11,528 bases of DNA from Candidatus Rokuibacteriota bacterium (lineage in GTDB: Bacteria > Methylomirabilota > Methylomirabilia > Rokubacteriales > CSP1-6), in the NCBI GenBank assembly GCA_016201575.1, contig JACQCN010000364.1, forward strand, positions 1 to 11,528, read 5' to 3'. The notes under the pieces were generated by a model. The model did no database searches, had not been told where the DNA came from, and saw only the letters and a program-made list of their open reading frames with translations. The translations under genes were made by a program, and so were the position numbers. Below are positions 5,836-7,040 of the stretch, in pieces (the first letter of the stretch is position 1; each line of letters starts with the position of its first letter).

Positions 5836-6738
5836 ATGCGCAAGGACATCGCGTTCAAGACCGAGGACGGCGTGACGCTGCGCGGCTGGCTCTACCTTCC
5901 CGATCGCCCGACCGGTTCCGCGCCGGCGGTGGTCATGGCCCACGGCTTCTCCGCCGTGAAGGAGATGTACCTGGACCGGTTCGCGGAGAGCTTCGCGGCC
6001 GGCGGCCTCGCCGCGCTCGTCTTCGACAACCGGAGCTTCGGCGCGAGCGACGGCACGCCCCGCCTGCACATCGACCCCTGGCAGCAGGTCCGCGATTACC
6101 GCGACGCGATCACCTTCGCCGAGACCCTGCCCGAGGTCGACGCGAGCCGGATCGGCGTGTGGGGCTCGAGCTACAGCGGCGGGCACGTCCTCGTGCTCGG
6201 CGCGCTCGACCGGCGCGTGAAGTGCGTGGTCGCGCAGGTCCCGCTCATCAGCGGCCACCGCAATGCGCGGCGCCTGATCCGGGCGGACTTCATCGCGCCC
6301 GTCCAGGCCCAGTTCGACGCCGACCGCCGGGCGCGCTACGCCGGCCAGGAGCCCGCCATGATCCCGGTGGTGGCCGAGAACCCGGCGGCGCCCTGCGCGC
6401 TGCCGACGCCGGACTCCTGGGAGTGGTTCACGGAAACCGGCAAGCGGCGCGCGCCGGCGTGGCGGAACGAGGTCACGCTCCAGTCGGTCGAGCTGTTCAC
6501 CGAGTACGAGCCGGGCGCGTACATCGAATGGGTCAGTCCCACGCCGCTGATGCTGGTGGTGGCGGCCGGCGACCATCTGACCGTGAGCGACGAGGCGCTC
6601 GCCGCCTACGCCCGCGCGCTCGAGCCGAAGCGACTCGTGCTCCTCGGGGGCGGGCACTTCGACGCCTACGTGAAGGACTTCGAGTCGGCGAGCGGGCCGG
6701 CGCGCGACTGGTTCGCGCAGCACCTGGCGAAGCGGTAG
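5836..6738 (+). CDS. Alpha/beta hydrolase (esterase/peptidase-like)
   Basis: This 300-residue cytoplasmic protein has no signal peptide. The fold begins with DGVTLRGWLYLP (11-22) and the oxyanion strand VVMAHGFSA (32-40), followed by DNRSFGASDG (64-73). The nucleophile elbow is WGSSYSGG (109-116), with S112 the likely nucleophile. The acid is D246 in AAGDHLT and the histidine H274 in GGGHFDAY, giving a complete Ser-Asp-His triad. Residues about 140-235 form a large insert between core strands that would make the lid and decide substrate. The family includes esterases, dienelactone hydrolases and S9/S15-like peptidases; I cannot choose among them. AAGGAGG lies 10 bases before the ATG, and a candidate promoter lies upstream, so it is probably transcribed alone. 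It converges on the tRNA cluster, whose last tRNA ends 20 bases beyond its stop. Confidence 0.88.
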   Translation: MRKDIAFKTEDGVTLRGWLYLPDRPTGSAPAVVMAHGFSAVKEMYLDRFAESFAAGGLAALVFDNRSFGASDGTPRLHIDPWQQVRDYRDAITFAETLPEVDASRIGVWGSSYSGGHVLVLGALDRRVKCVVAQVPLISGHRNARRLIRADFIAPVQAQFDADRRARYAGQEPAMIPVVAENPAAPCALPTPDSWEWFTETGKRRAPAWRNEVTLQSVELFTEYEPGAYIEWVSPTPLMLVVAAGDHLTVSDEALAAYARALEPKRLVLLGGGHFDAYVKDFESASGPARDWFAQHLAKR

Positions 6739-6758: not shown

Positions 6759-6835
6759 TGGTGCTGGTGGAGGGATTCGAACCCCCACTGAACCGATTTT
6801 AAGTCGGTCGCCTCTGCCGATTGGGCTACACCAGC
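6759..6835 (-). tRNA. tRNA with UAA (Leu) anticodon and a short variable region
   Basis: The 77-nt gene folds as follows: acceptor GCTGGTG/CACCAGC, discriminator A73, encoded CCA. The D arm is a 3-bp stem GCC/GGC with an 11-nt loop holding GG. The anticodon stem is ACCGA/TCGGT with loop CTTAAAA. The variable region is TCAGT, and the T arm is GGGGG-TTCGAAT-CCCTC. The anticodon is UAA (plus-strand 6799-6801), which reads the leucine codon UUA. The 3-bp/11-nt D arm and A73 resemble bacterial tRNA-Leu, and the order Gly(GCC)-Cys(GCA)-UAA equals E. coli glyW-cysT-leuZ. Bacterial tRNA-Leu should carry a variable arm of roughly 12-20 nt, yet here there are 5. All stems pair, so it does not look like a pseudogene. 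The amino acid it accepts is inferred, not shown. Confidence 0.85.
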
Positions 6836-6856: not shown

Positions 6857-6932
6857 TGGAGGCGGCGAGCGGATTCGAACCGCTGAATAGAGGTTTTGCA
6901 GACCTCCGCCTTAACCACTTGGCTACGCCGCC
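6857..6932 (-). tRNA. tRNA-Cys (GCA)
   Basis: This 76-nt gene has acceptor GGCGGCG/CGCCGCC, discriminator U73 (the cysteine identity base) and an encoded CCA. The anticodon loop CTGCAAA gives anticodon GCA for UGC/UGU. The T loop TTCGAAT is canonical. It is the middle gene of a three-tRNA cluster, 21 bases after the UAA tRNA's 5' end when read on the plus strand. Confidence 0.96.

Positions 6933-6965: not shown

Positions 6966-7040
<75 letters not shown>

Follow-up and report, generated by a model that had tools for sequence, protein, structure and literature searches.

The window considered here, a stretch of 11,528 nt from a Candidatus Rokuibacteriota bacterium, encodes a class I tRNA-Leu(UAA), with a short variable region in place of the long arm that defines leucine tRNAs of class II. 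It is probable in our view that this is a working leucine tRNA for UUA which took the slot of a long-arm tRNA, likely through the homing of a cassette that joins an HTH part to a LAGLIDADG part. A gene resembling a selfish DNA-cutting enzyme may have spread the short tRNA. The features of the window are as follows.

6759..6835, minus strand: class I (short variable region) tRNA-Leu(UAA), CCA encoded (ARAGORN; Rfam RF00005, 63 bits; homologues in relatives)
6799..6801, minus strand: anticodon TAA (loop CTTAAAA), tRNA position 35 (ARAGORN)
6787..6791, minus strand: variable region TCAGT, 5 nt in place of the long arm, its last base being U48 (sequence)
6857..6932, minus strand: tRNA-Cys(GCA), next to the tRNA-Leu on its upstream side within the conserved Gly-Cys-Leu slot (ARAGORN, Rfam, slot comparison across relatives)
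6966..7040, minus strand: tRNA-Gly(GCC), first in the Gly-Cys-Leu slot (ARAGORN, Rfam, slot comparison across relatives)
5836..6738, plus strand: ORF convergent to the tRNA-Leu(UAA), filling the side where some relatives have the LAGLIDADG part

ARAGORN calls the gene at 6759-6835 (-) tRNA-Leu (taa), and Rfam RF00005 matches it with 63.0 bits (E 4.9e-12, cut-off 29). Its single non-standard pair is 13-22 (C.A) in the D arm, base 73 is A, and the variable region has 5 nt where class II tRNA-Leu has a long arm. The genes are read in the order Gly(GCC), Cys(GCA), Leu(UAA). An earlier note, made from the letters alone, had given the UAA anticodon, the missing long arm, the coordinates and the Gly-Cys neighbours, and ARAGORN, Rfam and the sequence bear it out on each. 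The window is contig C445 of a genome in 471 contigs (2.57 Mb, 77% complete) with 20 tRNA matches over the Rfam cut-off, where the one other leucine tRNA is a normal long-arm UAG; a long-arm tRNA-Leu(UAA) was sought in this genome, about a quarter of which is missing, and none was found. We take the convergent ORF to be alpha/beta hydrolase-like by its look, and no LAGLIDADG remnant was found at the expected place here.

The form is not confined to the window. The earlier note had allowed that an assembly error might have deleted the arm, in which case sister genomes would lack the form; copies of 92–96% identity occur in 8 other relatives of the 98 searched, which rules such an error out. In the window's Rokubacteria family the short form is present in 7 of the 56 other genomes, and the 57 family genomes divide into 8 with the short form (window included), 42 with a long-arm UAA tRNA and 8 with neither, G039 having both; in this count the long forms of G047, G018 and G009, whose TTAAAC loops the search pattern missed, were added from the loci of the linked gene described below. 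The long-arm gene of G039 is interrupted by a contig end, and its two Gly-Cys-Leu units (L430 and L431), one long and cut, one short, lie at two contig ends, as a tandem or mixed strains might leave them. G044 has as many as three copies of this tRNA (L378 and L439), two of them parted by an N run, either a tandem or a scaffolding artefact.

More widely, the window tRNA belongs to a class I tRNA-Leu(UAA) form with a TAGCCCAANYGGCAGAGGC-type D arm, a short variable region ending in U48 and a UAA anticodon. At least 119 stretches of named genomes match the pattern of leucine-type D arm and short variable region, those listed being mostly actinobacterial by title (Mycobacterium, Nocardia, Rhodococcus, Arthrobacter, Corynebacterium and others). 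The same class I tRNA-Leu(UAA) pattern also has matches in viral contigs, on at least 120 stretches. A similar tRNA is found in 44 phage records, and the 25 among the matches listed are annotated as tRNA-Leu. A second, long-arm tRNA-Leu(UAA), which the earlier note had thought worth seeking, was seen in one short-form genome, G115, taken as the same genome as G039; in the other 18 of the 19 examined no second UAA tRNA was seen with a pattern that misses some loops (19 of 20 genomes were counted, Moorena (G108) being left out, and 12 further rows, G115's excepted, hold no tRNA by ARAGORN). Among single loci, MAGs titled Deltaproteobacteria (L143) and Planctomycetota (L126) have a short tRNA-Leu(UAA) behind tRNA-Cys, that of L143 looking close to the Rokubacteria form (transfer or a mislabelled bin), and a perhaps mobile array of 19 tRNAs in about 2 kb (L040, G091:C13) includes four short-arm tRNA-Leu (taa, gag, cag, tag).

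In some relatives the tRNA is followed directly downstream by an ORF starting AYxYLLGxYLGDG. This linked gene was found in 17 of 99 genomes searched, all 17 of the window's family, and in 17 of 17 it adjoins Gly-Cys-Leu(UAA) or Cys-Leu(UAA), with a long-arm tRNA in 14 and a short-arm one in 3; three more contig-edge or weak matches (L474, L475, L477) have no tRNA in view. Many of its copies are fragmented, and in the family it is about equally frequent beside long forms (14 of 42 genomes) and short forms (3 of 8). Within genus g9, the flanks of G053 are 84–88% DNA-identical to those of G010, while its endonuclease part has 53–55% protein identity to that of G041, against 65–85% for six other g9 members; such a contrast would follow from a joint arrival of the tRNA and the endonuclease. 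Some predicted endonuclease proteins (P0005, P0007, P0008 etc.) open with V/MQVRILPPLP, much as a translated T arm and 3' end of the long-arm tRNA would read; judged at this protein level, ORF and tRNA may overlap there as well.

In G053, G015, G033 and the viral L481, one frame runs from an HTH through a whole class I tRNA-Leu(UAA) into a LAGLIDADG part. The nested tRNA is read in its first frame, giving the AGVAQSAEATDLKSVQ.GF type (diverged in L481), and encodes the linker between the two parts, the anticodon letters TTA being read as a leucine codon. The LAGLIDADG part is complete in one frame solely in L481; in G053, G015 and G033 the frame of the HTH takes in at least a portion of it. 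An open frame through the tRNA means little in itself, other short forms having one as well; what is telling is the HTH in frame with it. Among the best 171 homologues listed from two queries (611 and 2,542 matches), 58 have the tRNA-encoded linker with at least 30 residues upstream. These 58, known at the protein level alone, were picked by the linker pattern and not by HTH or spacing, and in 56 of them the upstream part matches (E ≤1e-3) an HTH profile built from 23 selected proteins that contain no tRNA. Shuffled sequences match it in 0 of 580 cases, and of 29 other upstream parts 4 match. Linker and LAGLIDADG are separated by 29 residues in 56 of the 58 and by 28 in the other 2. Tentatively, we suggest that a tRNA gene is here nested in frame in a homing endonuclease gene whose linker it encodes, that the RNA may either be matured to tRNA or translated, and that homing could swap class II for class I with an essential tRNA as selfish cargo. 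In four further proteins (P0173, P0195, P0203, P0218) the interdomain or N-terminal parts look, by eye and at the protein level, as if other tRNAs had been translated there, perhaps long-arm Leu(UAA), Arg(UCU) and Leu(CAA).

The same kind of gene stands beside another leucine tRNA in an actinobacterial order. Homologues occur in 98 of 200 genomes of the order of Spirillospora albida (E 1e-20) and adjoin tRNA-Leu(CAA) on the same strand at 29 of 29 scored loci, the best-matching ones (L513, with no motif match, stayed unscored though tRNA-Leu(CAA) is present). Among the matches listed, the homologue lies 4–359 nt downstream of tRNA-Leu(CAA), by distances between matches and not gene ends, in 74 of 76 genomes with both rows, while 22 of the 98 endonuclease genomes have no tRNA row. 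At the loci read in this order the HTH follows tRNA-Leu(CAA) and the tRNA is not nested. Class I tRNA-Leu(CAA), seen at L487, L493, L495-L500, L506, L507, L509 and L512, is common there: classed by match length alone, 100 are short and 47 long in the 147 genomes used, out of 150 that have a tRNA row among the matches listed (look-alike rows G227, G316 and G173 left out). In the same set, short and long number 46 and 30 with the homologue and 54 and 17 without it, short forms being, if anything, less frequent where it is present (Fisher p 0.052).

Of 28 named genomes with a class I UAA tRNA, 2 have the homologue, neither beside the UAA tRNA: in Mycolicibacterium sediminis it stands by tRNA-Leu(UAG) on the other strand, in Spirillospora by tRNA-Leu(CAA). 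The homologue was sought near the tRNA in 239 short-form loci, genomic and viral, among the matches listed, and none was found. Four viral homologues came from the P0069 query, L481 by a short and L482 by a long tRNA-Leu(UAA), and L483 and L484 (28% identity) with no tRNA in view; a viral scan with P0070 found no relative, and no protein match at E 1e-5 came from plasmids searched with a G041 query or from named phages searched with L480. The linkage of the HTH-LAGLIDADG gene to tRNA-Leu is strong. As a predictor of the short form, the endonuclease-like gene was rejected, the counts in the family, the named genomes and the actinobacterial order being against it.

Traces of such a cassette remain in the window's congener G002, whose tRNA is 96% identical to the window's. 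A broken HTH end, GRPRSTVR, stands just before this tRNA and HPAYAYL directly after it; of 20,000 random stretches, 155 have a match of the first kind and 62 one of the second, and as these stretches include the cassettes the control is conservative. Single shared 6-mers were dropped as remnant evidence, as 225 of 326 random stretches had one. The window itself has no copy of the linked gene, which the earlier note had thus no means of noticing, and beside its tRNA an HTH or LAGLIDADG remnant was sought at the expected places and none was recognisable. From its relatives, we read the window as an end state, in which a cassette would have arrived, the tRNA been replaced and the protein gene been lost.

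The position of the short form points to replacement at one site. In the family, 7 of 8 short forms (window included) stand behind Gly-Cys, as does that of G059 from another family, and the eighth, in G002, lies 53 nt from a contig end. Sister genomes carry a long-arm tRNA-Leu(UAA) in the same Gly-Cys-Leu slot, and thus it appears that the tRNA was exchanged several times, presumably from long to short since the long form is commoner. As a vehicle, a tRNA replacement borne by an integrase was considered and set aside, as the ORFs on the stretches from G001 and G012, inspected by eye, showed no integrase.

A plain vertical history would be one alternative: the family ancestor had both long and short tRNA-Leu(UAA), lineages lost one or the other, and the LAGLIDADG-like gene is a non-causal neighbour. 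It accounts for G039, with both forms on two contigs, each behind Gly-Cys, and for partial short-form relics found 2.8–3.2 kb from the long forms of G001 and G012, and it agrees with the failure of gene presence to predict tRNA form in the family and the actinobacterial order. We nevertheless hold it to be fairly unlikely. On a LeuRS tree of 35 genomes (G053 absent, no LeuRS being taken from it; the rows of G003, G016 and G050 carrying no label for tRNA form) the short label has to change 7 times, at least 5 of the changes being forced, and is no more clustered than in shuffles, 243 of 500 of which are as low. The congeners G034 and G049 differ in their tRNA, long in the former and short in the latter, and yet on either side of it their flanking DNA can be aligned up to some tens of bases from the gene. 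The remnants on both sides of the G002 tRNA, and the tRNA found inside a protein frame in several lineages, also speak against a history of loss alone.

The reading by homing depends as well on what the linked gene encodes. LAGLIDADG_3 (PF14528) is over the cut-off in 1 of 3 family copies and in 5 of 8 further proteins (P0070, P0076, P0100, L481, L479; not P0115, L437, L480), 4 of the same 8 having HTH_23; a first Pfam scan of two linked-gene fragments gave one negative and one under the cut-off. In 40 aligned rows the motif aspartate D102 is kept in all and D203 in at least 90%, and the relatives' linked gene has both the motifs and the fold of a LAGLIDADG homing endonuclease. An AlphaFold2 model of P0070 (40 sequences; mean pLDDT 85, pTM 0.70) has a confident HTH (25-62) and LAGLIDADG part (86-276), with residues 64-80 under pLDDT 50, a segment inside the tRNA-encoded part that makes up most of the linker. 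Its structure matches are LAGLIDADG enzymes such as I-DmoI, with TM-score up to 0.71 by target length (among the 50 matches listed), and also WhiA (8dy9, 3hyi). This last match counts against the homing reading, since a LAGLIDADG fold with an HTH can be a transcription factor, and the protein might then be a WhiA-like regulator of the tRNA-Leu locus and no endonuclease. We consider this unlikely: WhiA has lost its catalytic residues whereas the motif aspartates are kept here, and the patchy, often fragmented and slot-bound distribution fits homing genes.

The course of events that we favour, replacement of the tRNA by homing, would then run as follows. The tRNA was probably carried by a cassette, its gene lying in frame within that of an HTH and LAGLIDADG protein. 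Where a tRNA-Leu slot had no cassette, homing would bring in a copy together with the foreign tRNA; the short tRNA would thereby have taken the place of the long-arm tRNA-Leu(UAA) in the Gly-Cys-Leu slot of the Rokubacteria family. Afterwards the protein gene would decay while the tRNA remains. G053, G015 and G033 would represent the cassettes, G002 the state of decay and the window the end state.

Whether such a tRNA could serve as a leucine tRNA can be judged from its bases. In the available part of PMC9976931, the identity set of E. coli LeuRS is given as A73, A14, A15-U48, G18G19 and A20a, tRNA-Leu truncated to lack the long arm stays active, and human mt-tRNA-Leu(UUR) is charged without a long arm. 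The window tRNA has the full set as given there (A73, A14, A15:U48, G18G19, A20a). The search pattern forced A14, G18G19 and A20a, so in the copies only the free positions A15, U48 and A73 are evidential. Among the matches listed, A15 with U48 is found in 118 of 118 genome copies and 77 of 79 viral copies parsed, and A73 in 117 of 118 and 79 of 79 (ARAGORN was applied to all 119 genome loci and, of the 120 viral ones, to 80; one copy in either set stayed unparsed). LeuRS would recognise the short tRNA through A73, D-loop and hinge elements and A15:U48, the long arm not being needed.

In the window's genome one leuS-type gene is over the cut-off, and because a long-arm tRNA-Leu(UAG) is present as well, one LeuRS probably serves both it and the class I UAA tRNA. 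The earlier note had proposed that LeuRS be inspected for changes, and the enzyme of the window's genome (G000:C27:8998-11253, L091) does lack, through an in-frame gap, about 75 residues of the CP1 editing domain, the TTRPDT region among them; in relatives the enzyme runs to about 830 aa, and the gap may be a real editing loss or an assembly fault. However, LeuRS frames of 833–856 aa are found in the short-form relatives G015, G033, G039, G049 and G059, and that of G002, in the part present, spans the editing region intact, which rules out an altered LeuRS as adaptation to the short tRNA. As far as sequence can tell, the window tRNA is most likely an ordinary leucine tRNA for UUA charged by the normal LeuRS. 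The suggestion in the earlier note that LeuRS accepts a class I tRNA-Leu thus gains inferential support from the identity elements kept, the mainly leucine TTA columns given below, the single leuS beside a class II UAG tRNA and the 18 of 19 genomes without another UAA tRNA seen.

The codon itself is rare, as the earlier note had expected, with TTA in 13 of 46,757 aligned codons of the family loci and, as it had observed by eye, in none of the 3,244 codons of the 13 window ORFs taken as genes. A mostly actinobacterial set has 87 of 128,311 aligned codons (7 of 119 genome loci were left out, six non-actinobacterial by title and L152 of unstated phylum, while the non-actinobacterial L210 and L221 stayed in). 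The TTA columns are mainly leucine: leucine has the majority in 8 of 9 family columns and in 5 of 6 of those from short-form genomes (two being apparently one column in sister genomes), and in just 35 of 62 in the mostly actinobacterial set, where CTA has 114 of 159. The rarity of UUA, together with the short form often being the sole UAA tRNA seen, would suit a regulatory leucine tRNA of the bldA type, limiting the expression of UUA-containing genes. This is very unlikely, as UUA is no rarer near short forms (10 of 26,607 codons) than near long forms (3 of 20,243), and Streptomyces bldA is itself a class II tRNA with a long arm. Nor does the short form look free to drift, as had been supposed from the rare codon; it is strongly conserved. 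That the tRNA is charged with an amino acid other than leucine, recoding UUA, has the missing arm and nothing else in its favour and is hardly credible, the leucine identity elements being kept, the TTA columns being mainly leucine, and the short form being the sole UAA tRNA seen in the complete genomes of Mycolicibacterium sediminis and Leucobacter coleopterorum.

What emerges is, in all likelihood, a widespread bacterial leucine tRNA without the class-defining arm, in organisms whose other leucine tRNAs include long-arm ones and which seem to have a single LeuRS, whereby the role of the arm becomes testable by comparison. The turnover of an essential tRNA gene is linked to endonuclease-like genes at tRNA-Leu slots in Rokubacteria, one actinobacterial order and viral members, and a tRNA gene serves as protein-coding sequence. 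Among the open-access papers listed by the literature searches we found no description of the class I tRNA-Leu(UAA) form or of an endonuclease-nested tRNA; the parts available of PMC6297222 and PMC9569102 hold nothing on either. As far as their available parts go, PMC7609411 is a review of non-canonical tRNAs, PMC11541572 gives long loops for M. tuberculosis tRNA-Leu-2, 3 and 5, and PMC8450103 (tRNAscan-SE 2.0) has a human tRNA-Leu gene without the arm.

Compared with known systems, the window tRNA shares with the class II tRNA-Leu(UAA) of the E. coli leuZ type the anticodon, A73, A14, A15:U48, G18G19 and A20a, and also the Gly-Cys-Leu gene order, which for E. coli we take from the earlier note; it differs in lacking the long variable arm, and its acceptor and D stems differ from those of the sisters' long-arm forms. 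The tRNA-Leu(TAG) of the M. mucogenicum clade likewise has a short variable loop and stands beside a normal isoacceptor, but its anticodon is UAG and it is an extra copy in a tRNA cluster, and the available part of the paper mentions an HNH gene and neither UAA nor LAGLIDADG (PMC6582537). Human mitochondrial tRNA-Leu(UUR), according to the available part of PMC9976931, is leucylated without a long arm and has A73 and A14 as identity elements; it differs in belonging to an organelle. Streptomyces bldA also reads the rare codon UUA, and differs in that a regulatory role has been shown for it. WhiA, like the linked gene product, combines LAGLIDADG with an HTH, but it is a chromosomal regulator with the reverse domain order, and we know of no tRNA inside it. 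With the LAGLIDADG homing endonucleases I-DmoI and I-AniI the linked gene shares the fold and the two acidic motifs, and it differs from them by its N-terminal HTH, by the tRNA nested as a linker in some members and by its tie to tRNA-Leu slots.
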